Assembly (NCBI RefSeq): GCF_003002815.1
Contig: NZ_PVTF01000004.1
Span: 682,001-746,000, forward strand
Reading direction: 5' to 3'
DNA: 64,000 nt
Source of the DNA: Umezawaea tangerina
GTDB taxonomy: Bacteria; Actinomycetota; Actinomycetes; Mycobacteriales; Pseudonocardiaceae
The notes under the pieces are model-generated. The model searched no databases. It saw only the letters and a list, made by a program, of their open reading frames with translations, and was not told where the DNA came from. Every line of letters begins with the position of its first letter. Positions within the stretch are counted from its first letter, which is position 1. The position numbers and the translations under genes are program-made. Positions 41,812 through 57,453 of this stretch are shown piece after piece.

Positions 41812-44800
41812 ATGCAGCGAAGAGGTGTCCTGACCACCGTTTTGGCCGCAGTCGCGCTGGTGACCGGCGTCTGCTCGGCTCCGGCCGCGCTCGCCGACCC
41901 CGAGGCCATGGCCGAAGATCCCGCGTCCCTCGTCAACCCCCTGATCGGTACGACGAACCTGGGCAACACCTACCCCGGCGCGGTCGCGCCGTTCGGCATG
42001 CTGGCCTGGAGCCCCGAGCTCTCCAAGGGCAACGCGACCCGCACCGCGGCGCCCGGCGGCTACCACTACGACGTGAACAAGGTCCGCGGGTTCAGCCTGA
42101 CCCACATGTCCGGTACCGGCTGCGCCGGTGGCTCCGGTGACATCCCCTTCTTCCCGCACGTCGGCACCGTGACGACCTCCCCCGCCGCCGACGGCACGGA
42201 CGCGGTCTACGCCAGCACCTTCAAGCACGACAACGAGGTCGCCAAGGCGGGCAGCTACAAGGTCGGCCTGGACTCGGGCGCGACCGCCGAGCTGACCGCG
42301 ACGACCCGCACGGGCTCCGGCCGGTTCACCTTCCCCGCCGACAAGCCCGGCACGATGCTGATCCGCACGGCCAACTCCGAGACCGGCAGCACCGCGTCGG
42401 ACGTGACCGTGGACGCGGCGACCCGCACCGTCACCGGCTCGGTCACCAGCGGCAACTTCTGCGGCTACATCAACCAGGTCGGTAGGCGCAGCTACTACAC
42501 GCTGCACTTCGTGGCGCAGTTCGACCAGCCGTTCAAGGAGGTGGGAACCTGGCAGGACGGTGTCGTCACGCCGGGCTCGACGACGTCGACCGGTGCCACG
42601 ACCTACGGCACCTCCGGGTGGCCGGTGGTCGGCAAGGGATCGGGCGCCTACATCGGGTTCGACACCGCCGCGGCCAGCACCACCAACGTCAAGGTCGGCA
42701 TCTCCTACGTGAGCCTGGACAACGCCAAGGCGAACCTCAAGGAGGAGAACCCGCCGAAGGCGACGTTCGAGAAGACCCGCGACAACGCCGTCAAGGCGTG
42801 GTCGAAGCAGCTGGGGAAGATCGAGGTGGGCGGCGGCACCCCCGAGCAGCGGACCACGTTCTACACCGCGCTCTACCACGCGCTGCTGCACCCGAACGCG
42901 TTCAGCGACGTCAACGGCGAGTACTGGGGCATGGACGGCAAGCCCCACAAGGTGACCAGGAAGCAGAAGGTCCAGTACGGCACCTTTTCCGGCTGGGACG
43001 TCTACCGCTCGCAGCTCCAGCTCCTCACCCTGCTGGAACCGGAGACCGGGTCGGACATCGCGCAGTCGCTGCTGAACCAGGCCGACCAGAACGGCGGCGT
43101 CTGGGACCGGTGGACGCACAACTCCGGCGGCACGCACGTGATGAACGGCGACCCGTCCGCACCCGCGCTCGCGGGCATCTACGCCTTCGGCGGCAGGGAC
43201 TTCGACGTCAAGGCCGCGCTCAAGTCGTTGGTGCGGGCGGCGACGGTGCCGACCGAGCAGGACCTGAGCAAGGACGGCTGGGCCGTCATGTCGGTCGGCC
43301 AGCGCCCGTCGCTGGACAAGTACCTTCAGCTGCACTACATGCCGTCGGTCTCGAACGCCTGGGGCGGCGCGGCGGAGACCCTGGAGATGTCCACCGCGGA
43401 CTTCGCGCTGTCGGAGCTGGCGAAGGACGTGAAGGACCCGGCGACCGCGAAGGTGTTCGCCGAGCGCTCGCAGTGGTGGCAGAACAACTTCGACCCGGTC
43501 GCGCACAGCAGCGGCGGGTACGTCCGCAACCGCAACGCCGACGGCACCTGGGTCAAGGACTTCGTGCCCGGCACGGAGAACGGGTTCGTCGAGGGCACCA
43601 GCGCGCAGTACAGCTGGATGGTGCCGCACAACGTGGCGGGCCTGGTCGAGTCGATGGGCGGCAAGGACCGGTTCACCAAGCGGTTGGACGACTTCTTCCA
43701 CAAGGCCGACGGCAGCTGGGCGCTGAGCGGCGCCGGTGGCGACAAGGCCGCGCTGGACAACGAGCCGTCGATCAACTCGCCGTGGCTCTACGACTACGCG
43801 GGCCAGCCGCACAAGGCGCAGCAGACGATCCGCCAGGTGCTCAACACCATGTGGGGCGACAAGACCGGCGGCATTCCCGGCAACGACGACCTCGGCGCCA
43901 TGTCGTCCTGGTACGTGTTCGCCGCGATGGGCATGTACCCGCAGGTGTCCTCGCGCGCCGAGCTCGTGCTGGGCAGCCCGCTGTTCCCGAAGATCAAGGT
44001 CGACCGCCCGGACGGCAAGGACATCACCATCACCGCGCCGAAGGCCGCGGCCGACGCGCCGTACGTGCAGTCGCTCAAGGTGAACGGCAAGGCGTCCACC
44101 AAGCCGTGGCTGCCGACGTCGTTCGTGGAGAAGGGCGGCAAGCTCGACTACGTGCTGGGCACCACCGCGAACACCTCGTGGGGCTCGAACCCGGCCGACG
44201 CGCCCCCGTCGTTCCGCGACGGCGAGCAGCCGATCAAGCACGACCAGCCGTTCTACCTCACCGTGTCGCCGACCAGCCCCACGCTGGCGCCCGGCGGGTC
44301 GGTCACGGCCGCCGTGCAGGCGAAGCGGCTCTACGACGGCGACCCCGCCGTGACCTACACCGCCACCGGTGACTCCGCGCTGGTCTTCACCCCGGCGACC
44401 GGCACGGTGCCGATCGACGACACCGGCGCGCGGTTCGCCATCAGCACCACACCCGACGCGCCGCAGGGCTTCTACTCCGCCACGGTCACGGTCACCGTCG
44501 CCGGTGCCCAGCCGGTGGTGCTGCCGCTCACCGTGAAGGTCGCTCCGCCGGGCAGCATGCTGGCCGCGGTCAACAACATCGGCGCCTCCGACGACGCGGG
44601 CTCCGAGGTCGCCGACTTCGACGGCGGCGGCTACAGCTACTCGCGGCAGGCGCTGGCCGCGGCCGGGCTGAGCTCCGGCGCGACCGGCACGGTGGACGGG
44701 CTCACGTTCACCTGGCCGAACTCGCCGAACGACCGGGCGGACAACGTCGTCACCAACGGCCAGAGCGTCGACGTGACCGGCACGAAGCTGTCGTTCATCG

Positions 44801-45102
44801 GTGCCGCGGCCGACGGCGGTCGCACCGCGGCGGCCACGGTGACCTACACCGACGGCACGACCGGCACCGTCGACCTCGGGTTCAGCGACTGGACCCTGGG
44901 CGGCGGCGGCCAGAACCCGTCCTACGGCAACGTGGTCGTGGCCAAGACGCCGTACCGCAACCTCCTCGGCGGCGGCAACGAGCAGGTGGTGACCAACATC
45001 TTCGCCACGAAGACGTTCACCGCACCCGAGGGCAAGGTGCTCAAGAGCGTGCAGCTGCCGACCAACGAGGGTCTGCACGTGTTCGCGATCGCCACCGCGT
45101 AA
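41812..45102 (+). CDS. Secreted GH92 alpha-1,2-mannosidase
   Basis: 1096 residues. The signal peptide MQRRGVLTTVLAAVALVTG ends near ALADPE. The GH92 N-terminal beta-sandwich starts VNPLIGTTNLGNTYPGAVAPFGM, and the (alpha/alpha)6 catalytic domain follows. Family hallmarks include GFSLTHMSGTGCAGGSGDIPFFP, FYTALYHALLHPNAFSDVNGEYWG, GGTHVMNGDPSAPALAGIYAFG and GGIPGNDDLGAMSSWYVFAAMGMYP. The last ~190 residues form an extra beta-sandwich (NNIGASDDAGSEVADFDGGGYSYS ... VQLPTNEGLHVFAIATA), likely carbohydrate-binding. The enzyme would trim calcium-dependent exo-mannosides from glycoproteins or fungal mannan. It is monocistronic, closed by a strong terminator. Confidence 0.95.
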   Translation: MQRRGVLTTVLAAVALVTGVCSAPAALADPEAMAEDPASLVNPLIGTTNLGNTYPGAVAPFGMLAWSPELSKGNATRTAAPGGYHYDVNKVRGFSLTHMSGTGCAGGSGDIPFFPHVGTVTTSPAADGTDAVYASTFKHDNEVAKAGSYKVGLDSGATAELTATTRTGSGRFTFPADKPGTMLIRTANSETGSTASDVTVDAATRTVTGSVTSGNFCGYINQVGRRSYYTLHFVAQFDQPFKEVGTWQDGVVTPGSTTSTGATTYGTSGWPVVGKGSGAYIGFDTAAASTTNVKVGISYVSLDNAKANLKEENPPKATFEKTRDNAVKAWSKQLGKIEVGGGTPEQRTTFYTALYHALLHPNAFSDVNGEYWGMDGKPHKVTRKQKVQYGTFSGWDVYRSQLQLLTLLEPETGSDIAQSLLNQADQNGGVWDRWTHNSGGTHVMNGDPSAPALAGIYAFGGRDFDVKAALKSLVRAATVPTEQDLSKDGWAVMSVGQRPSLDKYLQLHYMPSVSNAWGGAAETLEMSTADFALSELAKDVKDPATAKVFAERSQWWQNNFDPVAHSSGGYVRNRNADGTWVKDFVPGTENGFVEGTSAQYSWMVPHNVAGLVESMGGKDRFTKRLDDFFHKADGSWALSGAGGDKAALDNEPSINSPWLYDYAGQPHKAQQTIRQVLNTMWGDKTGGIPGNDDLGAMSSWYVFAAMGMYPQVSSRAELVLGSPLFPKIKVDRPDGKDITITAPKAAADAPYVQSLKVNGKASTKPWLPTSFVEKGGKLDYVLGTTANTSWGSNPADAPPSFRDGEQPIKHDQPFYLTVSPTSPTLAPGGSVTAAVQAKRLYDGDPAVTYTATGDSALVFTPATGTVPIDDTGARFAISTTPDAPQGFYSATVTVTVAGAQPVVLPLTVKVAPPGSMLAAVNNIGASDDAGSEVADFDGGGYSYSRQALAAAGLSSGATGTVDGLTFTWPNSPNDRADNVVTNGQSVDVTGTKLSFIGAAADGGRTAAATVTYTDGTTGTVDLGFSDWTLGGGGQNPSYGNVVVAKTPYRNLLGGGNEQVVTNIFATKTFTAPEGKVLKSVQLPTNEGLHVFAIATA

Positions 45103-45146: not shown

Positions 45147-45204
45147 TTTGGCGCACCCCGGTTCCGGGGCAGCCCACCGGACAAACCGAGTGGAGGCCAC
45201 CACC

Positions 45205-45831
45205 GTGTTCAGCGGAGTCCTGTTCGACTTCTCCGGCACCCTGTTCGACGACAGGTCCGTCCTCGACCCGGCCCGCGCCGCCGTCGGCGACGAGGTCATC
45301 ACCGGTGTCCTCGCCCACGTCGACTCCCCCGAGGGCATCGCCGCCCGCCAGGGTTGCGACGTCTCGCGCGAGCGGCACCGCGCCGTCTGGACCGCCCTCA
45401 TCGCCGAGTCCGGCACCTACAGCGGCACCGTCGTGGACGCCATCTACCACGCCCTCACCGACCCGTCCGCCTGGCGGCCCTACCCCGACACCGCACGGGT
45501 GGTCACCGCCCTGCACGACCGCGGCACGCGGGTCGGCGTCGTCAGCAACATCGGCTGGGACATCCGCCCCGCGCTGGCCGACGCGGGCGTGCTCGACCTG
45601 CTCGACACCGTCGTCCTGTCCTGCGAGCACGGCCTGGAGAAACCCGACCCCGCCCTGTTCACCCTCGCCTGCGACAAGCTCGGCCTGCCACCGGCCTCGG
45701 TGCTCTACGTCGGCGACGACCCGCTCAAGGACGGCGCGGCCGTGCGGGTCGGCATGCCGGTGTACCTGCTCCCCACCGAGCGCTCCGCCGACCGCGACCG
45801 CGGCCTGGACGCGGTGCTGCGCCTCGCCTAG
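45205..45831 (+). CDS. HAD-superfamily hydrolase
   Basis: 208 residues from the GTG at 45205, with GGAGG eight bases upstream. Motif I LFDFSGTLFDD (nucleophile and acid/base Asp), motif II VVSNIGWD, Lys in LEKPDPALF and motif IV YVGDDPLKDGAAV are all present, so it is a competent phosphatase. It lies beside the cyclitol-like cluster but is separated from it by the IS element and points toward it. It could supply the phosphatase step that the cluster otherwise lacks; that is inference. Confidence 0.88.
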   Translation: MFSGVLFDFSGTLFDDRSVLDPARAAVGDEVITGVLAHVDSPEGIAARQGCDVSRERHRAVWTALIAESGTYSGTVVDAIYHALTDPSAWRPYPDTARVVTALHDRGTRVGVVSNIGWDIRPALADAGVLDLLDTVVLSCEHGLEKPDPALFTLACDKLGLPPASVLYVGDDPLKDGAAVRVGMPVYLLPTERSADRDRGLDAVLRLA

Positions 45832-45863: not shown

Positions 45864-46850
45864 CTAGGTGTATTGACCTAAAAGGTTGGGAACGCGGCTG
45901 GCGGGTGGGTGGCCTGCGAGTGCGGTGTGGCCGCGGTGGTGATTGTAGGTGTGCAACCATCGTGGGAACGCTGCTCGTCGTTCGGTTTCGGATCGATAGG
46001 GGTAGGCATAGGCCCACTCGTCGAGCAGGGTGCGGTTGAACCGCTCCACCTTGCCGTTGGTCTGTGGTCGGTAGGGGCGGGTGCGTTTGTGGGCGATCCC
46101 GGCGGTGACCAGCATGTCTCGCCAGAGCAGGGACTTGTAGCACGAGCCGTTGTCGGTGAGCACTCGCTCGACGGTGATGCCTGTGGCGGTGAAGAACACC
46201 TGGGCCCGCCGCCGGAACGCGACCGCGGTCTCCTTCTTCTCGTCGGGCAGGATTTCGTTGTAGGCGAGCCGGGAGTGGTCGTCCACGGCGTTGTGCAGGT
46301 AGCTGTAGCCGACATGGCTGTTGCCGTTGGCGTCGAGTTTCTACCCGACGTGCGGGTGCGGTGGCGCTGCCCCGCCTGGCGGCTGGTGACCCGGTGCCCG
46401 CCGCCGTCGGGGATGTTGCCGAGTTTCTTGATGTCGACGTGTACCAGCTCGCCTGGCTCGTTCGTAGCGACGCACCGGCTGCGCGGTGGCCCGGTCGAGG
46501 TGGGCCGGTCGGGCCAGGCCGAACCGGATCAGTACCCGGTGCACCGTGGAGGGCGCCAGTCGCAGCAGGAACGCGATCCGGGCCGGGCCCCACCGCCGTG
46601 CCAGGCGGACCTTGATGATCCGCCGTTCGATCCGGATCGGGGTGCGGCCCGGACTGGTGTGTGGACGCGATGATCGGTCGCCCATGCCGGACTCGCCCTG
46701 GTCCCGGTAGCGGTCGGCCCACCGTTTCGTTGTGCTCACCGAGACCTGGAACCGTTCCGCGGCCCGCCGCAATGGCCAGTGCTCGTGCACGACACACCGT
46801 GCCAGGCGGAGCCTGCCCAGCGGGGTCAGTGGTGCGTTAGCGTGGGTCAC
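45864..46850 (-). pseudogene. IS481-family transposase, frameshifted
   Basis: The N-terminal part (GTG at 46850; THANAPLTPLGRLRLARCVV, helix-turn-helix, DRSSRPHTSPGRTP) and the C-terminal catalytic part (VDDHSRLAYNEILPDE, VLTDNGSCYKS, KVERFNRTLLDEWAY) lie in different frames. Around 46455 the frame slips after YER, so that PGELVHVDIKKLGNIPDGGG continues in another frame. Near 46341 a second slip and an in-frame TAG separate this from KLDANGNSHVGYSYL. The DDE residues (Asp of HVDIKK, Asp of LTDNG, Glu of KVERF) are still encoded. The C-terminal frame stops only in the target duplication. Confidence 0.85.
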
Positions 46851-46967
46851 GAGCGCCTCCGTCGGTCGGTGCAGACGTCGCAATCCACACCGAACCCGGA
46901 GGTCCTCACCTATTCCAAGATCATTCGATCTCGTGTCGCCCCGTTCCTAACCTCTGTGGTCAGTACA
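45869..46967. mobile_element. IS481-family insertion sequence, degenerate
   Basis: About 1099 bp with imperfect ~28-base terminal inverted repeats: the left end begins TGTATTGACCTAAAAGGTTG and the right end, read inward, TGTACTGACCACAGAGGTTA, both continuing to GGAACG. The flanks are identical CCTAGG (45863-45868 and 46968-46973), a 6-bp target duplication. The internal transposase gene is broken. It inserted exactly at the stop codon of the dehydrogenase gene. Confidence 0.85.
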
Positions 46968-46968
46968 C

Positions 46969-47943
46969 CTAGGGCGTCACCAGGACCTTGCCGAGCACGC
47001 GGTCGGTGGTGAGCCGGTCCAGTTCCGCGGGCAGGTCGGCGAGCGCCACCTCGCCGGACACCAGCGGCTCCACCGCCAGTCCGTCGGCCAGTGCCCGCAT
47101 GGCGCGCGGGAAGTCGGCGGGGCCGGTGCCGTAGCTGCCGCCGACCACGACCGGCTTCCCGTGCCAGCCCGCCATCCAGGCGGACTCCTTGCGCCGCACG
47201 GTGTCCAGGTCGCAGTCCAGCTCGGGCAGGCGGTCGCCGGTCTTGGTGCCGCCGTAGAGCATCACGACCCCGCCCGGCCGCACCAGCCGCAGCGCGTCGC
47301 GGAGCAGGTCGGGGAACACGAAGCTGGTCGCGACGACCACGACGTCCTGGCTGTCCGGCGGCACCCCACGACCCACGACGCCGGGCAGCACACCGCGCGA
47401 GACCAGGAAGTCCAGCCGGTCGCGGCCGCGGTTGTGCAGCGCCACCCCGGCGCCGCCGAGCTCGGCCAACCCGGCGATCAGCACCCCGGCCACACCCGCG
47501 CCGAGCACTGTCACCGTTCGCGGCGGCGTGCCCAGGTGCCGTTCGGCCATCGCCACGCAGTGCGCCGCGCAGGCGGCGGGCTCCGCGAACACCAGCGTCC
47601 GCGCGCCCACCCCGTCCGGCGCGACCGGCAGCGCCCGCGCCAGGTCCGCCGCCGCCCCGGACACCCAGAGCCGCCGGGCGAACCCCGACCCCCTGCGCAC
47701 CGGCACGTTCGGGTCCAGGCACACCCGCGTGCCGACCGGCAGCACCCCGTCCTCGACCACCCCCACCAGCTCGTGCCCGAACTGGCTGGGCCCGCCGCGC
47801 ACCCCGGTGATCTCCTTCAGGTCCGACCGGCACACGCCCATCAGCTCGGTGCGCACCAGCACGCCGGGCATCCCGTCGTGCGCCAACGGCTCTCGGGTCA
47901 GCCGCGGCCCGTCCCCGGTCAGCGCGACGGCGAGCTGGTCCAC
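46969..47943 (-). CDS. Zinc-type medium-chain dehydrogenase of the cyclitol cluster (ValN-like role)
   Basis: 324 residues from the GTG at 47943. GroES-like domain with catalytic-zinc ligands Cys38 (GVCRSD) and His57-Glu58 (FGHELVG); the four-cysteine structural-zinc lobe is absent. The Rossmann motif is TVLGAGVAGVLIAGLAELGG. Related enzymes act on cyclitols in aminocyclitol pathways. It is the last gene of a five-gene operon, overlapping the aminotransferase by 25 bases. By analogy with validamycin, it would reduce an enone or ketone of a phosphorylated cyclitol. Its stop codon lies in the IS target duplication but is intact. Confidence 0.82.
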   Translation of the reverse strand: MDQLAVALTGDGPRLTREPLAHDGMPGVLVRTELMGVCRSDLKEITGVRGGPSQFGHELVGVVEDGVLPVGTRVCLDPNVPVRRGSGFARRLWVSGAAADLARALPVAPDGVGARTLVFAEPAACAAHCVAMAERHLGTPPRTVTVLGAGVAGVLIAGLAELGGAGVALHNRGRDRLDFLVSRGVLPGVVGRGVPPDSQDVVVVATSFVFPDLLRDALRLVRPGGVVMLYGGTKTGDRLPELDCDLDTVRRKESAWMAGWHGKPVVVGGSYGTGPADFPRAMRALADGLAVEPLVSGEVALADLPAELDRLTTDRVLGKVLVTP

Positions 47944-49208
47944 ACGGTCTCCACGGCCTCGGCGAAGCGGTCGGCGATCAGGTGGGCGTCGGCCGGGGTG
48001 AGGATCAGCGGCGGCCGCAGCTCGATCACGTTGCCGAGCCCGTGCTCCGACACCCGCGTGATCACCCCCAGGTCCCCCAGCGCCTTGCTCAACGCCGTCG
48101 CCAGCCGCGGCGACTTGGACCCGTCGGGCTCGGCCAGCTCGACCCCGAGCATCAGCCCGACCCCGCGCACGTCGTCCAGGAAGTCGAACCGCTCCTTCAG
48201 CGCCGTCAACCGGTCGAGGATCACCTTCCCGGTCGCGCGGACGTTCGCCAGGAACTCCGGCCGCTTCACGATGTCCAGGGTCACCACGGCCGCGGCGGCC
48301 GACAGCGTGTGGCTGCCGTAGGTGAACCCGTGCAGGTTGCGCGGCATCCCGACGAGCTCCTCCTCGGTGATGATCGCCGCCAGCGGCAGCCCGCTCCCGG
48401 TCAGCCCCTTCGACACCGTGATCATGTTCGGCGCCACCCCGAAGTGGTCGGCCGCGAACAGCGACCCGGTGCGGCCCAGGCCCGTCTGGTTCTCGTCGAA
48501 GATCAGCACGATCTCCCGCTCGACGCAGAACTCCTTGAGCCGCTGGAGGTAACCCGGCGGCGGCACCACGTTCCCGCCTACCCCGCTGATCGGCTCGATG
48601 ATCATCGCGGCCACGCTGCCGGTGGAGGCGTAGGTGATGAAGTCGTCGATCCGGTCCACGCACAGCTTCCCGCAGCTGTCCGGCTCCTGCTTGTAGAAGC
48701 ACCGGTGGCAGTAGGGGTCGGGCACGTGCAGCGCGCCCGGCATGTGCTGCTGGAACGGTGCCCGGATCCGCGCCGAGCCGTTCCACCCCGCGGCGGCAAC
48801 GGTCTGGCCGACGTGACCGCGGAACGGCACGATCACGTCGCGGCGGCCGGTGTGCCACTGGGCGATCTTGATCGCGCCCTCGTTCGCCGTCGACCCGCCG
48901 GAGCTGCGCAGGTTGACCCTGGTCAGGTTGGGCGGCGTCAGCTCGACGAGCTGGCGCATCACCCGGTTCGTCGGGTCGGTCTGGAACGACGAGCTGGCGA
49001 ACACCAGGTCGTCGACCTGGCCCTTGAGCGCCGCCACGACGGCCGGGTGGTTGTGCCCCAGCACCAGGTTGAACGTGCCGGACACGCAGTCCAGGTACTC
49101 GCGGCCGTCGGAGTCCCACATCCGCACGCCCTCGCCGCGCACCAGCCGCACGTCGCCCAGCTCGTAGTAGGCGTCGTCCTTCGGGTCCACCCCGGTGACC
49201 GGGTGCAT
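47919..49208 (-). CDS. Class III PLP aminotransferase of the cyclitol cluster (ValM-like role)
   Basis: 429 residues. WDSDGREYLDCVSGTFNLVLGHNHPAVVAAL opens the fold type I domain. SSGGSTANEGAIKIAQWHTG binds PLP phosphate, IFDENQTGLGRTGSLFAADHFGV has the cofactor Asp, and ITVSKGLTGSGLPLAA places the Schiff-base Lys at residue 267. The Cys-rich stretch YCHRCFYKQEPDSCGKLCVD is uncommon outside a subgroup of this class. It shares one base with the GT20 stop (TGATG). It probably installs the amine on a cyclitol ketone, giving the amino partner for coupling. The amino donor is not predictable. Confidence 0.85.
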   Translation of the reverse strand: MHPVTGVDPKDDAYYELGDVRLVRGEGVRMWDSDGREYLDCVSGTFNLVLGHNHPAVVAALKGQVDDLVFASSSFQTDPTNRVMRQLVELTPPNLTRVNLRSSGGSTANEGAIKIAQWHTGRRDVIVPFRGHVGQTVAAAGWNGSARIRAPFQQHMPGALHVPDPYCHRCFYKQEPDSCGKLCVDRIDDFITYASTGSVAAMIIEPISGVGGNVVPPPGYLQRLKEFCVEREIVLIFDENQTGLGRTGSLFAADHFGVAPNMITVSKGLTGSGLPLAAIITEEELVGMPRNLHGFTYGSHTLSAAAAVVTLDIVKRPEFLANVRATGKVILDRLTALKERFDFLDDVRGVGLMLGVELAEPDGSKSPRLATALSKALGDLGVITRVSEHGLGNVIELRPPLILTPADAHLIADRFAEAVETVWTSSPSR

Positions 49209-50647
49209 CAGCGCTGGCCCGAATCAATCGAACGCAGGCTGGCCAGCTGGGTGTCCACCCAGCGTTCCAGCGTCCACGGCTCGGCCGCCTCACGGCGTTT
49301 CAGCGCCGACGCGGCCCGCTCCTCCGGCGTGGCCAGCAGCGCCGCCGCGATGGCCTCGGCCTGCTCGGACACGTCGAACGGGTTGACCGACCGGCACACC
49401 TCGGACAGCACCTCGGCCGCGCCGAGCATCTCGGACATGATCACGTCGGCGTCACGGCGGTTGACCAGCGGCGCCTCGAACACGCTCAGGTTCTGGCCGT
49501 CCACGGTGGAGTTGAACACCAGCAGGTCCGCGCGTTCGAAGCAGCCGAAGCTGTGGTTGACCTCGTTGTCGCAGTGGGTCCGCACGGTGTCCGCTCCCAG
49601 CTCGGCGTTGGCGGCGGCCGCTTCCTCCTCCACCCGCCGGACGTAGTCGGAGTTCGCCTCGACGTAGAGGCGGTTGGGGTTCATCCGGACCAGCATCCGG
49701 GTGCCCCGCAGCGAGGGGTTCTCGTTGACCGCCTTGACGAACGCCCGCACCGCGCGCCAGCCGTTCTTGATCGGGTCCGTCCGTCCGGAGTGGACGACCA
49801 GCCGGTGCTCCCCCGCCCACTCCTCGATGCCCTCCGGCAGGGTGGACTTCCTGCGGTGCAACGTCTCCGGGCTGTACCCGAGCACCTGCGTGCGCACCTG
49901 GCACACCCGTCCGCGCCAGGTGACCGTGCTCGCGGCGCGGTCGACCACGGCGTCCGGGAACAGGTCCTCCACGCAGGCCAGGAAGTTGCGCGACCAGCGG
50001 TCGGCGAAGAAGCCGATCACGTCGGAGGCGAGCATCCCCTCGACGATGCCGGTGCGCATCGGCTTGGGCAGGATGCGCCAGTAGTCCGCCGACGGCCACG
50101 GGATGTGCACGAAGTGCAGGATCGGCGCGTCCGGCCGCTGTGCCCTGATCCGGGCGGGCACGCAGACCAGCTGGTAGTCGTGCACCAGGTAGACCGGGTC
50201 GGTCACGTCCGCCGACCGCGCCAGCAGCTCGCGGGCGTAGTCCTCGGTGAACTCGTCGAAGGCCCGCCACGCCGCGCGCGTCTCCTCCCCGAACGTCGGC
50301 GTCGTCCACTTGTCCCAGCCGTAGTTGTTGCCCGCCCACATCAGCTCGGCGGTCAGGAAGTCCTGCACCACGCGGAACGTCTCGCGGTTGTGCCGCAACG
50401 GGTGCACGGTGATCTCGCGGCCGGACGGGAGCTCGGTGACGATGCCGTCCGGGTTCTGCTCGGAGGCGAGGTGGTCGTCGTCGGTGTCGGCGCTGACGAT
50501 CCACGACACGTCCAGGTAGCCCGCCTGCTCGGCGACGACGTTGCCGGTGCCGCCGGGTGCCAGCCACGCCTTGAGCAGGCCGGTCTCCGGATCGGGTGCG
50601 TAGGTGACGACGGCCCGTTTGCTGGCCAGGAACAGGTGCTTGCTCAT
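49208..50647 (-). CDS. GT20 family (OtsA/VldE-like) glycosyl- or pseudoglycosyltransferase
   Basis: 479 residues related to trehalose-6-phosphate synthase. YLVHDYQLVCVPARIR and LHFVHIPWPSADYWRILP carry the acceptor-site Asp and His. VVHSGRTDPIKNGWRAV retains the Arg and Lys that bind donor phosphate, and LLVFNSTVDGQNLSVFEAPLVNRRDADVIMSE is the EXnE-like donor end. It diverges clearly from housekeeping OtsA (GRTDPIKNG instead of RLDYTKG), and no OtsB accompanies it. In validamycin and salbostatin clusters a protein of this family couples GDP-valienol to an aminocyclitol phosphate. The neighbouring genes make that non-glycosidic C-N coupling the best inference. Confidence 0.83.
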   Translation of the reverse strand: MSKHLFLASKRAVVTYAPDPETGLLKAWLAPGGTGNVVAEQAGYLDVSWIVSADTDDDHLASEQNPDGIVTELPSGREITVHPLRHNRETFRVVQDFLTAELMWAGNNYGWDKWTTPTFGEETRAAWRAFDEFTEDYARELLARSADVTDPVYLVHDYQLVCVPARIRAQRPDAPILHFVHIPWPSADYWRILPKPMRTGIVEGMLASDVIGFFADRWSRNFLACVEDLFPDAVVDRAASTVTWRGRVCQVRTQVLGYSPETLHRRKSTLPEGIEEWAGEHRLVVHSGRTDPIKNGWRAVRAFVKAVNENPSLRGTRMLVRMNPNRLYVEANSDYVRRVEEEAAAANAELGADTVRTHCDNEVNHSFGCFERADLLVFNSTVDGQNLSVFEAPLVNRRDADVIMSEMLGAAEVLSEVCRSVNPFDVSEQAEAIAAALLATPEERAASALKRREAAEPWTLERWVDTQLASLRSIDSGQR

Positions 50648-51546
50648 CGGTCCTCCACGACGTCGTTCGCGGCGATCTTGGTCAGGGCCAGCGCTCCCCC
50701 GTCCACCCCCAGCGGCGCGAGGGCGGCCAGCTCGGGGAGTCCGGGCGCCCTGGTGCTGTGCAGGCACGCGTTGACCGGGCGGCTCGCGTAGTGCCCCTCG
50801 GCCCTCGGCTGACTGCGCACGAGGGCCGGGTCGGCGCCGACGGCCAGCGCGATCCGGCGGGCCCACGCGTACCGGGTCAGCCGTTCCGGGCCGCCCAGGT
50901 GCAGCAGCCCGGTGCGGCCCGCCAGCAGCAGCGCGACCGTCCACGCGGCCACGTCGTCGACCAGCACCGGGGTGTTCCAGTGGTCGTCCGGCACGTCCAC
51001 CCCGCCGCCGTCGAGCAGCGCGCGGGCGCACGTGGTGAAGAAGTTCGGCCGGATGCCGTCGGGTTCCCAGCCGTAGACCAGGCTCACCCGCAGCGCCAGC
51101 CCGGCACCGGTGTCGAGCAGCGTCCGCTCGGCGGCCAGCTTCGCGCGGCCGTAGGCGTTCGCGGGCGACACCTCGTCGGTCTCGCCGCTGCTGGGCCGGG
51201 TGCCGTCGAACACGTTGTCGGTGGAGATCAGCAGCACCGGGCGGCCGTCGGCGGCGGCCGCGAGGTTGGCCGCCCCGCCGGCGTGCGCGGCGGCCGTCTC
51301 GGCCGGGTTCCGCTCGCACCAGGTGATGTCCGACGGGCCGTGCACGACGACCAGCGCGTCGACGCCCTCGACGACGTCCCGGCACGCCGCCGGGTCGCGC
51401 ACGTCCAGCTCCCGCCACGGCAGGCCGCGCGCGGACGCCGTGTCGGGCGCGTGCCGCGAGGCGACGACCGGGTCCACGTCGAGCGCTCGCAGCCGGGCCC
51501 CGATCGACGCGCCCAGGAAACCGCTGCCGACGACCAGCGCCCTCAC
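50644..51546 (-). CDS. RmlD/NAD-dependent epimerase-like SDR of the cyclitol cluster
   Basis: 300 residues from the GTG at 51546. LVVGSGFLGASIGARL is the NAD(P) glycine motif. ELDVRDPAACRDVVEGVDALVVVHGPSD, LISTDNVFDGTRPSSGETDEVSPANAYGRAKLAAE (Ser/Thr-Tyr-Lys catalytic set) and LHLGGPERLTRYAWARRIAL match the dTDP-4-dehydrorhamnose reductase fold. It would reduce or epimerise a cyclitol or sugar intermediate; no counterpart in the core validamycin set comes to mind. It overlaps its neighbours on both sides by four bases (GTGA, ATGA). Confidence 0.8.
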   Translation of the reverse strand: MRALVVGSGFLGASIGARLRALDVDPVVASRHAPDTASARGLPWRELDVRDPAACRDVVEGVDALVVVHGPSDITWCERNPAETAAAHAGGAANLAAAADGRPVLLISTDNVFDGTRPSSGETDEVSPANAYGRAKLAAERTLLDTGAGLALRVSLVYGWEPDGIRPNFFTTCARALLDGGGVDVPDDHWNTPVLVDDVAAWTVALLLAGRTGLLHLGGPERLTRYAWARRIALAVGADPALVRSQPRAEGHYASRPVNACLHSTRAPGLPELAALAPLGVDGGALALTKIAANDVVEDR

Positions 51547-52721
51547 CCGGCGACGCCTTCCGGCTCGGGCAGGCGCAGCAGCGCGGCCGCCGCGGCGACC
51601 AGCACGCCGCCCGCCGCGACCACGGCGAACGCGGTGCTCAGGCCCCAGCTCGCGGCCATCAGGCCGACCAGCGGCGGGCTGCCGAGGAAGCCGAGGTAGG
51701 AGATCGTGGTGACGGTGGTGATCGCCGCGGGCCTGCGCTCGTCGTCGGTCGACTTGCCCGCCATGCCCAGCAGCGTCGGCACCGCGGGCGCGAGCCCGAC
51801 ACCGGCCAGCGCGAACCCGACCAGCGCGACCACGGCGGGCAGCCCGGCGGGTTCGGTGACCACGGCCAGCACCAGGCCGACCGCGCCCAGGACGCTGCCC
51901 AACACCACGACCGTCAGGCCGGAGAAGCGCTCGCCCTGCCACTGGACGAGCAGCCGCCCGCCCGCCAGGCCGATCATGTACGCGGCGGGCGCGGCGCTGC
52001 CGAGCAGCGGTCCGGCGCCGAGGTCCTGCTCCAGGTGGATCGCGCCCCACTGCTCGACGGCGTTCTCCATGAACAGCACCACGGCGGCGACCAGGCCGAA
52101 CGCGATCAGGACCGGGGTCATCGAGCGGGGGCGGACCGCAGTGTCCGAAGTGGACTGCGTGCGCCAGCCCGCCCGGTCCACCGACAGGAAGGCGCTGACC
52201 AGCACGAGGGCGGCGATGACGAGCAGCACGTCCCGCGAGGACGCCCCGGCCTGCCGCGCCAGGCCGACCGACGGCGCGGCGACCACCATCGCGAGCGGTG
52301 TGGCGGCGTGGACCTTGTTGAACAGCCGGACGCCGTCGCGCGCCTCGTGCGCGGCGGTGGTGGCGTTGAGGGCGACCTCGATCGCGCCGGAGGTCGCTCC
52401 AATCAAGACGAGGGAGAGCGCGAAGGTCACCGGGGAATGCGTCCACCCCGGCAGCGCGCACGCCACTGCGAAGACCGAAAGTACCAACGGGAGTGCCCTT
52501 TCGCGCATTCGAGACACCAGTTTTCCAGTGATCACCATGGCGGGCAGGGCGCCGACCGGGATGCCGAACAACGCGAGTCCGAACTCCGACTCGGTGGCGC
52601 CGATCTGGTCCTTGACCTCGGGCAAGAGCCCGGCCCAACCACCCCAGAAGAGTCCCCAGCTGGTGGCGGCGAAGATCAACCCCTTGGCGTTCGGACGACT
52701 TGGCGGCGCACTTGCCAACAC
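51543..52721 (-). CDS. MFS transporter, first gene of the left cyclitol operon (probable exporter)
   Basis: 392 residues with 12 hydrophobic helices (for example GLIFAATSWGLFWGGWAGLLP, FGLALFGIPVGALPAMVITG, VALVGFALAGVGLAPAVPTLLGMAG). It resembles the YbjJ/FucP-like sugar-type MFS group. The GTG at 52721 has GGGGAG nine bases upstream. It heads a five-gene operon transcribed away from the sugar-phosphate cyclase, and by position is the product exporter. Confidence 0.85.
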   Translation of the reverse strand: MLASAPPSRPNAKGLIFAATSWGLFWGGWAGLLPEVKDQIGATESEFGLALFGIPVGALPAMVITGKLVSRMRERALPLVLSVFAVACALPGWTHSPVTFALSLVLIGATSGAIEVALNATTAAHEARDGVRLFNKVHAATPLAMVVAAPSVGLARQAGASSRDVLLVIAALVLVSAFLSVDRAGWRTQSTSDTAVRPRSMTPVLIAFGLVAAVVLFMENAVEQWGAIHLEQDLGAGPLLGSAAPAAYMIGLAGGRLLVQWQGERFSGLTVVVLGSVLGAVGLVLAVVTEPAGLPAVVALVGFALAGVGLAPAVPTLLGMAGKSTDDERRPAAITTVTTISYLGFLGSPPLVGLMAASWGLSTAFAVVAAGGVLVAAAAALLRLPEPEGVAG

Positions 52722-52741
52722 TGTCTCCCCTCACTGATTGG

Positions 52742-52778
52742 GTTACGTTGGGTTCAGTGATTGTGAACCCAACGTAAC
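52742..52778. promoter_or_regulatory. 14-bp inverted repeat in the bidirectional promoter of the cyclitol cluster
   Basis: GTTACGTTGGGTTC (52742-52755) and GAACCCAACGTAAC (52765-52778) are perfect reverse complements separated by nine bases. They lie in the 115-base gap between the two divergent operons, 21 bases from one start and 58 from the other. The position and perfect symmetry make it a strong candidate operator controlling both operons. No regulator gene is inside the cluster. Confidence 0.7.
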
Positions 52779-52836
52779 GCCGACTCGGAGAAGCTGCCAA
52801 CCGGCGCCTTATCGGGTGACCCCCGAGAGGAGACAG

Positions 52837-53985
52837 ATGGACAGTCGCGACTTCTTGGTCACCGACCGAATCCCTTTGCCAGACGGCCCCGCGGTCGTGC
52901 ACGTCGACGTGGTCCGCGAGGACAGCTACCGCATCGACGTCGTGCGCGGCGTGGCCTCCGCGATCGAGGCGCTGCTCACCGAGCTGGACGGGCGCAGCGC
53001 CGTGGTCATCACCGACCACGTGGTGGCGGAACTGCACGCGGGCCCGATCATCGACGCGCTGACCGAACGGGGTCAGCTGCTCGGGACGACCTCGGTGCCC
53101 AGCGGTGAGAAGAGCAAGACGGCCACGACGGCGTTCGAGCTGGTGGACTGGTTGGCGCAGGTGGGTTTCGCCCGACGCGATGTCGTGATCGCACTGGGTG
53201 GTGGCGTCATCGTGGACACCGTCGGCTGGGTGGCAAGCGCTTACATGCGCGGGGTGCCGTACGTGAACATGCCGACCACGCTGCTGGCGCAGGTCGACGC
53301 GGGCATCGGCGGCAAGGTGGCGGTCGACCACAGCGAGGCCAAGAACCTGGTCGGCGCGTTCTACCAGCCGCGCGCGGTCATCTCGTGCCTGGAGTACCTG
53401 GGCACGCTGGACCGCAGGCAGGCGCGCGCCGGGCTCGCCGAGGTGGTGAAGAAGGCCGTGATCGCCTCTCCCGCGCTGTTCCGGTACATCGAGGACAACG
53501 TGGACGACCTGGTGGAGTGCCGGTCGCCCGCGGTGGACGTGCTGGTGCACGCCGCCAGCGCGATCAAGACCGAGCTGGTCGGCCGGGACCCGTACGAGGT
53601 GGACCTGCGCAGACCGCTGAACTTCGGGCACACCGTCGGCCACGCGGTCGAGACCGTGACGGACTACGGGCCGGTGCTGCACGGCGAGGCGGTCGCGTTC
53701 GGCATGGCGGTCGCGGTCGACGTGGCCAGGTCGCGCGGGGTCGTGGACCCGGCCACCGCGGACCGGGTGATCGCGCTGATCAGGCGGCTCGGCCTGCCCG
53801 TGTCGCTGGCCGACCTCGGGGTCGAGGTCGTGGTGGAGGACGTGCTCGGGGCGTTGGCGAAGATCCGCCAGATCCGCGACGGGAGCCTGCGGTTCGTGCT
53901 CCCCGTGGAGCTGGGGACGACGGCCGTCGTCGAGGACGTCACCACCGAAGAGGTGCGGGCGGCGCTGGTGCGGGAGCGCCCGTGA
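52837..53985 (+). CDS. Sugar-phosphate cyclase (dehydroquinate synthase-like; C7-cyclitol candidate)
   Basis: 382 residues from the ATG at 52837 (GAGAGGAG upstream). VPSGEKSKT and VIALGGGVIVDTVGWVASAYMRG bind NAD+ and substrate. The zinc ligands are Glu202 (GLAEVVKKAV), His265 (LNFGHTVGHA) and His282 (LHGEAVAFGM). It differs from housekeeping AroB at the GGKVAVDHSEAKNLVGAFYQP loop (AroB: GGKTGVN). It also differs from ValA-type 2-epi-5-epi-valiolone synthases, which as I recall have GHSFSP instead of GHTVGH. The context argues against the shikimate pathway. Sedoheptulose 7-phosphate to 2-epi-valiolone or 2-epi-5-epi-valiolone is inferred; other SPC products remain possible. Confidence 0.85.
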   Translation: MDSRDFLVTDRIPLPDGPAVVHVDVVREDSYRIDVVRGVASAIEALLTELDGRSAVVITDHVVAELHAGPIIDALTERGQLLGTTSVPSGEKSKTATTAFELVDWLAQVGFARRDVVIALGGGVIVDTVGWVASAYMRGVPYVNMPTTLLAQVDAGIGGKVAVDHSEAKNLVGAFYQPRAVISCLEYLGTLDRRQARAGLAEVVKKAVIASPALFRYIEDNVDDLVECRSPAVDVLVHAASAIKTELVGRDPYEVDLRRPLNFGHTVGHAVETVTDYGPVLHGEAVAFGMAVAVDVARSRGVVDPATADRVIALIRRLGLPVSLADLGVEVVVEDVLGALAKIRQIRDGSLRFVLPVELGTTAVVEDVTTEEVRAALVRERP

Positions 53986-55865
53986 CTCCACTGTGGACTG
54001 TGGACGCCGGCGGCACCGGGACCGCGGTGACCGGTCCCGGCGGCCGTCGGCGGTACGGGTCGGTGAACCCGGCCTCGGGCGGTCACGAGGCGGCGGACGC
54101 GGTGCTGCGCACCGTGTTCGCCGACCTGGCCGCCGACCTGGACGGCCGGGTCGGCCGGGGTTGGATCGCGACGGCCACGGTGGACCCCCGTGATCCGGGG
54201 TCCGAACTGGAACGCCTGCGCCGGACCGCCGAACGGGCGGGCCTGCGCGGGCGGGTCGTCGTGTCCAACGACGCGCTGCCGTGGCTGGTGGCGCCGCCGC
54301 TGTCCGGTCGCGGTGTCGCGGTCGTGTGCGGCACCGGCTCGGGTTTCCTGGCCGGCGACGGGCGGTCGGCGCCGGTGCGGGTCGGCAGCTGCGAGTACCT
54401 GGGCAGCGACGAGGGTAGCGCGTACGACCTCGGCCTGTCCGGGCTGCGCGCGGCCGTGCGCGCGCTGGACGGCCGGGGCCCGGACACGGTGCTGGCCAAG
54501 CACTTCGGCGTGACGACCGCGCGCGACCTGGCCCGGCTGGCCTTCCCCAAGGCCGCGGTGGCCGCGCTGGCGCCGACCGTGTGCCGGGCGTGGCTGGACG
54601 GCGACCCCGTGGCCACCCGGCTGGTCGCCGACGCGATCGGCGAGCTGGGCCTCGGCGTCCGGGCCGCCGCCGCGGCCGCCGGGCTCGAAGGCGGGTGGAC
54701 CGTCGCGGCGGGCGGCGGGGTGTTCCTCGGCTGCCCCGAGTTCCTCGCCGAGTTCGAACGCGAGGTGCTCGGCGACGTGGTCGTGGTGGACGACCCCAAC
54801 ACCACGATCGAGGCCGCGCTGGAAGCGGGCGTGCCCGCGTGGGCGCTGGACGACTGCGCGTGGACGCTCACCCTCGCCGCCCCTCCCCGCCCGGCGCCGA
54901 GACCGGCCGCGGCCACCGGTCCCATCGCGCTCGGCCTGTGCCTCGCGGCGTGGGGCGGCGACGGTCTGCCCGCGGCGCTGGACGCCGCCCGCGAGATCGG
55001 CGTGGACGCCGTGGACCTGCCGACCGACACCACGACGGGACTGGTCGACGCCGACCGCTGGGCAGCCGACGCCGCCTACCGGTCCGAGCTGCGCGAGACC
55101 CTGGCCGACCTGGCCGTGACGTGCGTCAGCAACAGCCGCGACACGCAGCTGCTGCTCGGCCCGCACGGTCCGCACACCGACCCGGTGCTCGCCGGGTCCG
55201 CCGACGAGAAGCGCGCGCACGCCCTGCGGCACGCGGAGCACGCCATCCGGATCGCCGCCGACCTCGGCGCACCCCAGGTGCGGCTGATGTTCGGCGTCCC
55301 GGACCTGTCGCGCTGGCTGTCCTGGTGGCACAGCGACGTCTCGTGGGCCGACAACGTCGAGGCGTGGCTGGAAGCCGCCACGCCCGTGCTGAAGCTCGCC
55401 GCCGAGCACGGCGTGCGGCTGCTCGTCGAGCCGCACCCCAAGCAGGTCGCCTACGACCCGGACAGCACCCGGCGGCTGCTGGACGCGGCGGACGTGCGGC
55501 TGTGCCTGGACGTCGCGAACCTCGCGGCCGTCGGCTACGACCCGGTGTCGGTGGTGCGCGGCTGGGGCAACCGGCTCGGCGCCGCGCACGCCAAGGACCT
55601 CCAGCGCTGGACCGGCACCGACCAGCCGCCCGGCGCGGGCTGGTCCCGCTACGGACCCGGCCCCGCGATCCGCTTCCGCGCACTGGGCTCCGGCGACCTG
55701 CCGTGGCCCGCGGTGGTGGCGGCGCTGCTGGACGAGGGCTTCCGCGGCGTGCTCTACGTCGAGCACGAGGACGCCCTGCTGCCCAGGGAGCAGAGCGCGG
55801 CGAACTCCGCGCGGCTGCTGCGCTCCCTGCTCCCCGACCGCGAACCGCAAGGGAGGACGTGGTGA
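53982..55865 (+). CDS. Fused BadF-type cyclitol kinase and TIM-barrel sugar isomerase/epimerase
   Basis: 627 residues from the GTG at 53982, overlapping the cyclase by GTGA. Residues 1-~300 form an ASKHA kinase of the BadF/N-acetylglucosamine kinase type: LWTVDAGGTGTAVTGPGG, VVSNDALPWLV, VVCGTGSGFLAGDG (Gly117 region), GSDEGSAYDLGLSGLRAAVRA and VAAGGGVFLGCPEF. An Ala/Pro linker (PPRPAPRPAAATGP) leads to a xylose-isomerase-like TIM barrel (~317-620): EIGVDAVDLPTDTT, LGAPQVRLMFGVPDL, LLVEPHPKQVAYDP, LCLDVANLAAVG, AAHAKDLQRW and VLYVEHEDAL. The fusion suggests sequential phosphorylation and epimerisation of the cyclase product. Confidence 0.85.
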   Translation: MTPLWTVDAGGTGTAVTGPGGRRRYGSVNPASGGHEAADAVLRTVFADLAADLDGRVGRGWIATATVDPRDPGSELERLRRTAERAGLRGRVVVSNDALPWLVAPPLSGRGVAVVCGTGSGFLAGDGRSAPVRVGSCEYLGSDEGSAYDLGLSGLRAAVRALDGRGPDTVLAKHFGVTTARDLARLAFPKAAVAALAPTVCRAWLDGDPVATRLVADAIGELGLGVRAAAAAAGLEGGWTVAAGGGVFLGCPEFLAEFEREVLGDVVVVDDPNTTIEAALEAGVPAWALDDCAWTLTLAAPPRPAPRPAAATGPIALGLCLAAWGGDGLPAALDAAREIGVDAVDLPTDTTTGLVDADRWAADAAYRSELRETLADLAVTCVSNSRDTQLLLGPHGPHTDPVLAGSADEKRAHALRHAEHAIRIAADLGAPQVRLMFGVPDLSRWLSWWHSDVSWADNVEAWLEAATPVLKLAAEHGVRLLVEPHPKQVAYDPDSTRRLLDAADVRLCLDVANLAAVGYDPVSVVRGWGNRLGAAHAKDLQRWTGTDQPPGAGWSRYGPGPAIRFRALGSGDLPWPAVVAALLDEGFRGVLYVEHEDALLPREQSAANSARLLRSLLPDREPQGRTW

Positions 55866-56938
55866 TGCACGAGGTCAGGGCGGCACTGTTGGCCGGTGGG
55901 CTCGGCGAGCGGATGGGGACGCTCACCGCGAACACCTGCAAACCCCTCGTCCCCTACGCGGCCTCGTGCAGGCTGGTCGACTTCAGCGTCGACAACGCGC
56001 TGCGCTCCGGCATCCCGGAGCTGGTGCTGATGTCGCTGCACCGCGAGCGCGACCTCATCGACCACCTGCTGCGCAGCTGGGACGACAGCCCGCTGAAAGT
56101 CCACTTCGGACCGCACGACGACCTAGTGCGCGACCCGTCGTTCACCGGCCCCCTGCCGGAACGAGCCCCGGAGCTGGGCACCGCCGACGCGCTGACCGCC
56201 AACGCCGAGTACCTGTTCGCGCCGGGCGCGCGGGACGTGCTCGTGCAGCACGCGGACCACGTCTACACCTACGACTACGGTGACATGCTGCACGCCCACC
56301 GCGAGAGCGGCGCCGACGTGACGATCGGCGTGCAGGCCATCGAACGCCGGTACGTGAAGCTGTTCGGCATGGTCGAGGTCAACGACGACCTGACCGTGCG
56401 CCGCCTGGTGGAGAAGCCGCAGGAGCCCACGTCCGACCTGATCTTCACCGCGTTCTGCCTGTTCCGCGTCGACACCCTCGTCAAGGTGCTCGACGAGCTG
56501 GCCGCGCTCGGCGAGGACGGCTGGCAGCACGACATCAGCCGCGACGTCCTGCCCGCTATGATCGCCACCGGCCGCAAGGTGCTCGCCCACCCGGTCACCG
56601 GGTACTGGGCCGACATCGGCACCGTCGAGCGCTACCACTCCGGCCAGCTGGGCCTGATCGACCACCCCGAGGCGCTGAAGGCCCCGCTCACCCTCGGCGG
56701 TCCGGCACCGCGGCGCGTCGGCGGCAACCTCGTGGCGGGCGACCTGCCCGTCGGCGCGGACGTCCGCTCCAGCGTCCTGTTCCCCGGCTGCGCGGTCGAA
56801 CCGGGCGCACTGGTGCGCCGGTCCGTCCTGCTGCCGGGCGCCACGATCGCCTCGGGCATCGAGGTGGTCGACACCGTCGTCGGCGCCGGCGAACACCTGA
56901 CGACCTCCCGCGTCGGAATCGCCGACCTGGAGCCCTGA
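55865..56938 (+). CDS. GlgC-like sugar-1-phosphate nucleotidyltransferase (ValB/VldB-like role)
   Basis: 357 residues. LLAGGLGERMGTLTANTCKPLVPYAASCRLVDFSVDNALRSGIPEL is the GlgC-type nucleotide-binding start. GTADALTANAEYLF, VLVQHADHVYTYDYGDML and GYWADIGTVERYHSGQLGL follow, and a C-terminal left-handed beta-helix begins near DVRSSVLFPGCAVEPGA. In validamycin biosynthesis a GlgC-like enzyme makes GDP-valienol, the donor for the GT20-like transferase, and both are present here. A GTG one codon upstream (55862) overlaps the previous stop by four bases; the ATG at 55865 overlaps it by one. It is the last gene of the right operon. Confidence 0.88.
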   Translation: MHEVRAALLAGGLGERMGTLTANTCKPLVPYAASCRLVDFSVDNALRSGIPELVLMSLHRERDLIDHLLRSWDDSPLKVHFGPHDDLVRDPSFTGPLPERAPELGTADALTANAEYLFAPGARDVLVQHADHVYTYDYGDMLHAHRESGADVTIGVQAIERRYVKLFGMVEVNDDLTVRRLVEKPQEPTSDLIFTAFCLFRVDTLVKVLDELAALGEDGWQHDISRDVLPAMIATGRKVLAHPVTGYWADIGTVERYHSGQLGLIDHPEALKAPLTLGGPAPRRVGGNLVAGDLPVGADVRSSVLFPGCAVEPGALVRRSVLLPGATIASGIEVVDTVVGAGEHLTTSRVGIADLEP

Positions 56939-57015: not shown

Positions 57016-57453
57016 CTAGCGGACCTCGAGGCCGTGGTCGGTGCTGGTGATCGGCTTGCCGGTCTTCCCGTCCACGACGACCGGGTGCACCGTCCGCCCC
57101 GTGGCGCGGTCGACCAGCCGCGCCGCGGGCCGCTCGGGTCCGAAGTGGCGTTGTCCCCAGGCCGCGAGCGCGCCCAGCACCGGCAGGAAGTCGTGCCCCC
57201 GCTCGGTGAGCACGTACTCGTGGCGCACCGGCGCGGTCGTGTACGCGCGCTGCTCCAGCAGCCCCGACTCCACCAGGCTCTTGAGCCGACGGCTGAGCGA
57301 CCCCGGTGAGATCCCCAGGTGCTCCTGGAGGTCGGCGAACCGGGTCATGCCCGCGGACACGTCCCGCAGCACCAGCACGCTCCACCACTCGCCCACGTGC
57401 TCCAGCCCGCGGGCGATCGGGCAGGCCGCCTCCGCGAAGCTCACGTGCTGCAC
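57016..57453 (-). CDS. HxlR-family transcriptional regulator
   Basis: About 145 residues from the GTG at 57453 (a GTG one codon earlier is equivalent; GGAGG upstream). The winged helix HxlR signature is complete: CPIARGLEHVGEWWSVLVLRDVSAGMTRFADLQEHLGISPGSLSRRLKSLVESGLLE, then YVLTERGHDFLPVLGALAAWGQRHF. The N-terminal cysteine (CPIAR) is the usual redox- or electrophile-sensing residue of the family. It is divergent from a thioesterase gene, with a palindrome in the gap. Confidence 0.92.
   Translation of the reverse strand: MQHVSFAEAACPIARGLEHVGEWWSVLVLRDVSAGMTRFADLQEHLGISPGSLSRRLKSLVESGLLEQRAYTTAPVRHEYVLTERGHDFLPVLGALAAWGQRHFGPERPAARLVDRATGRTVHPVVVDGKTGKPITSTDHGLEVR

Follow-up and report, generated by a model that had tools for sequence, protein, structure and literature searches.

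Does a compact set of eight genes in Umezawaea tangerina direct the synthesis of a C-N-linked pseudosugar, and if so, by which early route? The genes lie at positions 46969 to 56938 of the 64-kb stretch of DNA that we analysed (RefSeq assembly GCF_003002815.1, contig NZ_PVTF01000004.1, positions 682,001 to 746,000; hereafter the window), which is part of a 10.7-Mb host genome (G000). An earlier note on this DNA had described them as a validamycin-like cyclitol cluster in a new arrangement. Examination of the open reading frames (ORFs) found all eight genes open and closely packed in two divergent operons, and a Pfam search confirmed the family of every one, in agreement with the coordinates and families given in that note (Table 1). 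We conclude, with a probability of roughly 0.82, that the set is the Umezawaea counterpart of a pseudosugar cluster in Actinosynnema mirum, which is built around a 2-epi-valiolone synthase (EVS); its product is very probably a sugar mimic of the validamycin class made via an alternative early route. C-N-linked pseudosugars are trehalase and glucosidase inhibitors in crop and medical use.

The predicted coupling reaction is indicated by the glycosyltransferase family 20 (GT20) protein. In phmmer comparisons it scored 704 bits against VldE and 150 bits against the best OtsA, and it is 67.9% identical to VldE. We compared the 21 VldE positions that contact donor or acceptor, as set out in parts of PMC3441724 including its Table 2. 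Nineteen of them were identical in the window protein and in all 31 rows compared (duplicates from one genome were dropped, and L082, with its fragmented transferase, was not used). The two exceptions in the window protein are D362E, at a backbone contact, and T366S, where the hydroxyl is kept. N325 was kept, a position at which VldE differs from OtsA (Ser299), according to the same parts of PMC3441724. On the OtsA model the window protein reached 129.5 bits, below the cut-off of 564.85; whereas a second GT20 protein, encoded elsewhere in the genome, reached 525 bits. Because of the VldE similarity, the kept sites and the better OtsA candidate elsewhere in the genome, the predicted reaction, in which a GDP-cyclitol and a cyclitol 7-phosphate are joined by VldE-type C-N coupling, is well supported by sequence, and on this point the earlier note is supported.

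More distant VldE-like GT20 proteins, at 41% identity, were encoded in two stretches of about 9-14 kb (L027 and L028, from genomes G107 and G055). Their neighbours are MFS-like, zinc dehydrogenase and class III aminotransferase genes, and no match to the cyclase, kinase or nucleotidyltransferase was found in either stretch. Both GT20 proteins have His at the two acceptor residues, N325 and R326. These stretches possibly represent an aminated trehalose pathway. A search of an open-licence library listed no paper containing the word trehalosamine. Two further GT20 proteins with 42% identity (L115 and L116, from genomes G649 and G887) are perhaps the same divergent variant.

The early route depends on the sugar-phosphate cyclase. 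In a midpoint-rooted tree of 52 rows, which has long branches and drew long-branch warnings and from which duplicates of one genome had been dropped, the window cyclase and those of 27 relatives formed one clade with support of 99/98. This 28-row clade joined that of the 2-epi-5-epi-valiolone synthases (EEVS) and desmethyl-4-deoxygadusol synthases (DDGS) at 99/94, separate from the rows for AroB and 3-dehydroquinate synthase (DHQS); the genome's own AroB, encoded by a separate gene, grouped with the other AroBs. At one pair of adjacent columns all 15 AroB or DHQS rows read Asp-Lys, and all 28 window-type rows read Ile-Arg/Lys. As a validamycin-type reference we used a 21-kb fetched stretch of Streptomyces hygroscopicus subsp. 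hygroscopicus NBRC 13472 (L078), whose cyclase matches ValA (4p53) at an E value of 7e-223 and whose transferase is 94.4% identical to VldE; the window cyclase is 36% identical to this ValA-type enzyme. The earlier note had mapped the cyclase onto ValA; its clade is distinct from the ValA-type EEVS, and to judge from its sequence it is probably an EVS.

Three observations weigh against these assignments: the cyclase scores 318.6 on the NCBIfam aroB profile, above the cut-off of 305, its nearest solved structures are DHQS, and the second GT20 protein, tested as a trimmed stretch, falls just below the OtsA cut-off (525 versus 565). A passage of PMC5133447 notes the existence of EVS and adds that, absent contrary data, the EVS clade would pass for putative DHQS. 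The aroB score, together with the GT20 family name, would fit a cluster of primary metabolism in which the cyclase is AroB and the transferase OtsA, but the cyclase did not group with AroB in the tree, the transferase scored poorly on the OtsA model and matched VldE instead, the genome has separate AroB and OtsA-like genes, and the distribution of the cluster, described below, is rare and patchy. We therefore rejected this alternative, which we consider scarcely credible. A third cyclase-family gene of this genome (L003; G000:C8:377235-377573) lies on a very long branch (4.2) and fitted no class that we could name.

An EVS was reportedly described from A. mirum in 2012, as papers citing that report relate. 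The A. mirum genome (G021) holds four cyclase-family genes, of which L030 is AroB, L041 is of the window type, and L051, with its twin in genome G059, forms its own branch beside the AroBs. The fourth, at 5.018 Mb, we take to be the DDGS of a mycosporine cluster, because its counterpart in G059 (L055) groups with DDGS and because amir_4259 is listed within the A. mirum mycosporine cluster in a portion of PMC10384724. With the other three genes otherwise placed, the window-type gene is the best candidate for the reported EVS. That the two are the same is our assumption, and to that extent tells against the link with A. mirum.

The orthologous cyclase gene of A. mirum lies, as in the window, beside genes for the kinase, the nucleotidyltransferase and the VldE-type transferase. 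Gene content, order and orientation agree between the two clusters, and in both the kinase and a triosephosphate isomerase (TIM) barrel share one frame; identities range from 55% to 76%, with 75% for both the transferase and the cyclase. A gene for a haloacid dehalogenase (HAD)-type phosphatase is 2.1 kb away in A. mirum. The window differs in genus, in an insertion element that splits the phosphatase gene from the dehydrogenase gene, and in a perfect promoter palindrome, which in A. mirum is only partly recognisable. A paper by Asamizu et al. in ChemBioChem in 2013 is said, by its title, to concern an "alternative biosynthetic pathway to pseudosugars" in A. mirum, and we infer that its subject was the window-like cluster of A. 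mirum DSM 43827.

In all, 32 non-redundant clusters were compared: the window, L017, L021, L022, L023 and 27 loci from named genomes (L056-L082). The named-genome scan used two peptide patterns and gave 52 stretches, of which 27 were kept; relatives without both patterns would escape it. In eight relatives (L017, L021 from A. mirum, L022, L056, L057, L058, L059 and L063) the full set recurs with its order and orientation unchanged, including the gene for the major facilitator superfamily (MFS) exporter. The arrangement, presented as new in the earlier note, is already known in relatives from Actinosynnema, Saccharothrix and Umezawaea, and it is well supported that the Umezawaea cluster adds a member to the A. 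mirum kind. Since the eight genes are conserved among relatives, their chance grouping is excluded. We scored presence in the 31 relatives within the fetched DNA at an identity of at least 40%, many misses being contig ends: the transferase was found in 31, the short-chain dehydrogenase/reductase (SDR) in 30, the kinase in 29, the aminotransferase and the nucleotidyltransferase in 28 each, the TIM barrel in 27, the dehydrogenase in 26, the window-type cyclase in 24, the MFS exporter in 22 and the HAD protein in 17. The layout varies among the remainder. The cyclase gene is about 14-15 kb away in L023 and L070 and at the far end of the cluster in many Streptomycetaceae; Actinoallomurus and Actinomadura are without the MFS gene at that place; and L073, L080 and L081 have the whole cluster on a single strand. 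A section of PMC12041759 had earlier noted that ValL-like genes with neighbouring genes for a cyclase, a nucleotidyltransferase and a transaminase form a clade.

The cluster is rare and patchy. Among 200 genomes of the same family 13 had a transferase match: the window's own, ten that also had the rest of the set (with the cyclase elsewhere in the genome for three of them) and two divergent ones. In a sample of the class, the window's own genome was the single match among 394; in the genus of L078 there were five matches among 392 genomes, two of them divergent.

How closely, then, does the cluster follow validamycin biosynthesis? The validamycin genes are grouped as valABCD and valKLMN in the part of PMC3424136 that contains its Table 2. 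In the window as in L078, the SDR gene is followed by those for the VldE-type transferase, the aminotransferase and the dehydrogenase (K-L-M-N order), and the two also share a nucleotidyltransferase gene, a HAD gene and a divergent cyclase operon. The SDR, counted as extra in the earlier note, has a counterpart 58% identical to it directly before the L078 transferase, and it is not extra because these four genes make up the K-L-M-N block. The two clusters differ in their early genes: L078 has a ValA-type EEVS, a ROK kinase and a double-glyoxalase protein of the vicinal oxygen chelate (VOC) superfamily; whereas the window has an EVS-type cyclase, a BadF-type kinase and the TIM barrel. L078 also has a GT2 glycosyltransferase and, like the window, an MFS gene. 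When the L078 ROK, VOC and GT2 proteins were compared with the 64-kb window by tblastn, no match was found, which agrees with the claim that the cluster lacks a VOC-type epimerase and a late glycosyltransferase; the late glucosyltransferase (ValG; GT2 in L078) was sought in the window and not in the rest of the genome. The role-for-role map onto validamycin proposed in the earlier note thus holds for ValL, ValM and ValN and is not supported for ValA or for ValC, since the window kinase is BadF-type and that of L078 ROK. Were the cyclase to make 2-epi-5-epi-valiolone like ValA, the cluster would encode a validamycin-type pathway with rearranged genes. The SDR, transferase, aminotransferase and dehydrogenase, which match L078 at 52-68%, fit this alternative, but the low identity of the cyclase to the L078 enzyme, its separate clade and the origin of the kinase and epimerase in other families, with the L078 ROK and VOC proteins unmatched in the window, make it quite improbable. 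The acarbose (acb) system is like the window in its logic of C7-cyclitol 7-phosphate and GDP-cyclitol joined by C-N coupling, as parts of PMC9200736 describe it; whereas AcbS is there said to be similar to glycogen and starch synthases (GT5), the window transferase is GT20.

The kinase and the TIM barrel occupy one open frame in the window, and the kinase-isomerase fusion described in the earlier note is real. Of 28 clusters that could be read in this respect, 12 including the window have both domains in one frame and 16 have them adjacent in different frames; the frames are those of the tblastn hits, and in two of the 16 (L077 and L082) other genes are also fragmented and sequencing errors are possible. 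Four clusters could not be read, L061, L062 and L068 because of contig ends and L078 because it is without both domains. Fusion of neighbouring genes suggests that the two halves catalyse consecutive steps. The TIM barrel keeps E163, D190, H216 and E274 in 27 of 27 rows, residues that we take to bind the metal as in enzymes of the ketose 3-epimerase type. The structural model of the barrel (mean predicted local distance difference test score, pLDDT, 84) aligned best with SCO6571, 2-hydroxy-3-keto-glucal hydratase and Art22, followed by D-tagatose 3-epimerase-like proteins. We consider the barrel a probable C-2 epimerase, favoured because the step of the VOC epimerase is the validamycin step otherwise without a candidate in the cluster. 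A point on the other side is that the nearest solved structures include a hydratase, which is also compatible with a dehydratase such as IolE or the keto-glucal hydratase, epimerisation then falling to another enzyme or to none. The fold comparison, which does not separate epimerase from hydratase, includes ketose 3-epimerases as well; moreover, the 21 kb of L078 are without the barrel and yet have the SDR, the dehydrogenase and the VOC protein, and this subtraction points to epimerisation. We judge a dehydratase less likely, and retain the C-2 epimerase in what follows.

The genes present, their homologies and the conservation of sites and of gene order were observed directly; from these we infer every chemical step and the product below. 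The cyclase would convert sedoheptulose 7-phosphate to 2-epi-valiolone, the kinase half of the fusion would phosphorylate C-7, and the TIM-barrel half would epimerise C-2 beside the ketone, in the manner of ketose 3-epimerases, taking the place of ValD, a VOC epimerase unrelated to it. Dehydration and reduction of this intermediate by the zinc-type dehydrogenase and the SDR may then yield valienone, valienol or validone 7-phosphate; in the acarbose pathway, according to a portion of PMC7081202, the dehydration is performed by AcbL, whose annotation is that of a cyclitol dehydrogenase. Such a dehydration would erase the configuration at C-5, the point at which the EVS and EEVS routes differ. 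The aminotransferase would give an aminocyclitol 7-phosphate and the nucleotidyltransferase a GDP-cyclitol. No enzyme for C-1 phosphorylation, either a phosphomutase or a second kinase, was recognised in the cluster, and this activity must therefore come from elsewhere. The VldE-type enzyme would join the GDP-cyclitol and the aminocyclitol 7-phosphate through a C-N bond, the HAD enzyme would take off the phosphate, and the MFS protein would export the product. On sequence grounds, the likeliest product would be a C-N-linked, unglucosylated pseudodisaccharide, validoxylamine A or a close relative, and its likeliest activity trehalase inhibition. The chemistry of the earlier note is thus broadly sustained, even as its new arrangement and extra SDR are not.

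Table 1. Features of the cluster and its surroundings, in window coordinates
Feature	Position	Strand	Evidence
HAD-type protein, probable 7'-phosphate phosphatase of the pathway	45148..45831	+	Pfam Hydrolase/HAD_2
IS481-type insertion element, 1.1 kb	45868..46968	-	LZ_Tnp_IS481 and rve domains in two separate ORFs
Zinc-type (medium-chain dehydrogenase/reductase, MDR) cyclitol dehydrogenase or dehydratase, ValN/AcbL position	46969..47928	-	ADH_N, E 2e-6; 52% identity to L078 counterpart
Class III pyridoxal phosphate (PLP) aminotransferase, ValM position	47919..49208	-	Aminotran_3, E 6e-87; 68% identity to L078
VldE/ValL-type pseudoglycosyltransferase (GT20)	49208..50647	-	phmmer VldE 3vdm, E 5e-211, versus best OtsA, 6e-43
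RmlD-type SDR, ValK position	50644..51546	-	RmlD_sub_bind, E 5e-32; 58% to transferase-adjoining SDR of L078
MFS exporter	51543..52721	-	MFS_1, E 3e-24; in 22/31 relatives
Perfect inverted repeat, 15-bp arms and 7-bp spacer, divergent promoter region	52742..52778
Sugar-phosphate cyclase, probably EVS	52837..53985	+	Clade with EEVS/DDGS
Kinase-TIM fusion, whole ORF	53982..55865	+	Pfam
Fusion, N-terminal half: BadF/BadG-type cyclitol kinase	53982..54941 (boundary approximate)	+	BcrAD_BadFG, E 6e-11; PDB matches to sugar kinases
Fusion, C-terminal half: xylose-isomerase-like TIM barrel, probable C-2 epimerase	54942..55865	+
GlgC-like nucleotidyltransferase, ValB/VldB position	55865..56938	+	NTP_transferase, E 9e-34; 46% to L078

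The transferases also bear on the history of the two routes. In a free transferase tree VldE and L078 grouped with L080 and L081, two loci with EVS-type front ends, at a support of 99/99; L080, L081 and L073, from Streptomyces and Streptantibioticus and all with EVS-type cyclases, are the nearest to VldE in the set after L078 (78-83%). In a rooted test, a tree with all EVS-type transferases forced into one clade was not rejected (p-value of the approximately unbiased test, p-AU, 0.079 for the transferase and 0.167 for transferase plus aminotransferase, the latter with the 27 rows having a transferase and a usable aminotransferase). Nesting of the validamycin transferase within the EVS-type group, as in the free tree, would suggest that the early genes of validamycin were swapped in. 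The kinase and TIM barrel occur together beside a VldE-type transferase in 27 of 31 relatives (kinase 29, TIM barrel 27). We tentatively propose, at slightly less than even odds, that VldE-type coupling was from early on, and widely, paired with the EVS front end (EVS, BadF kinase and TIM-barrel epimerase) and that the EEVS/ROK/VOC front end of validamycin is a later replacement. If so, valienone 7-phosphate would be the point at which two unrelated front ends meet, dehydration erasing the single stereocentre by which they differ, and because of this convergence only the K-L-M-N block would have had to stay. Front ends interchangeable around a fixed K-L-M-N core would allow the replacement of a pathway module to be tested directly, and would offer a natural kinase-epimerase fusion. 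No product structure for clusters with the alternative front end was found in searches of an open-licence library.

The HAD gene was overlooked in the earlier note. Homologues with 51-91% identity occur in 17 of 31 relatives, and in 16 of these 17 the gene is 8 bp to 4.2 kb from the dehydrogenase gene; that of L078 (55%) is at the opposite end of the cluster. From its position, we consider it probably the pathway phosphatase. Two features speak against this role: motif I is DFSGT, an atypical form in which the second Asp is replaced by Ser, and 14 of 31 relatives showed no homologue of at least 40% identity, among them nine whose flanks are long (L067, L069, L073-L076 and L080-L082). The IS481-type element between the HAD and dehydrogenase genes breaks neither gene. 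It ends in imperfect 11-bp repeats (10 of 11 matching) and is bounded by the target duplication CTAG at 45864-45867 and 46969-46972; the same gap in L017 is without it.

The 15-7-15 palindrome in the divergent promoter region is probably an operator. Its arms are identical in all three genomes of the window's genus as defined by GTDB, with a different spacer in one, and it is found at one place per genome in each. It was not found in Umezawaea beigongshangensis (L019), which GTDB places in another genus. The partial likeness in the A. mirum promoter was recognised by eye; in the other 20 promoters scanned there was no such repeat, two of them having an unrelated 8-bp hairpin. A promoter scan of 52600-52900 found nothing.

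Three flanking genes were rejected as cluster members: the HxlR regulator gene at 57016 and the thioesterase gene at 57430 were each near the cluster in one of 31 relatives, and the GH92 gene in two, both of the window's genus. This last gene encodes a large protein (41812-45102) and adjoins the phosphatase gene.

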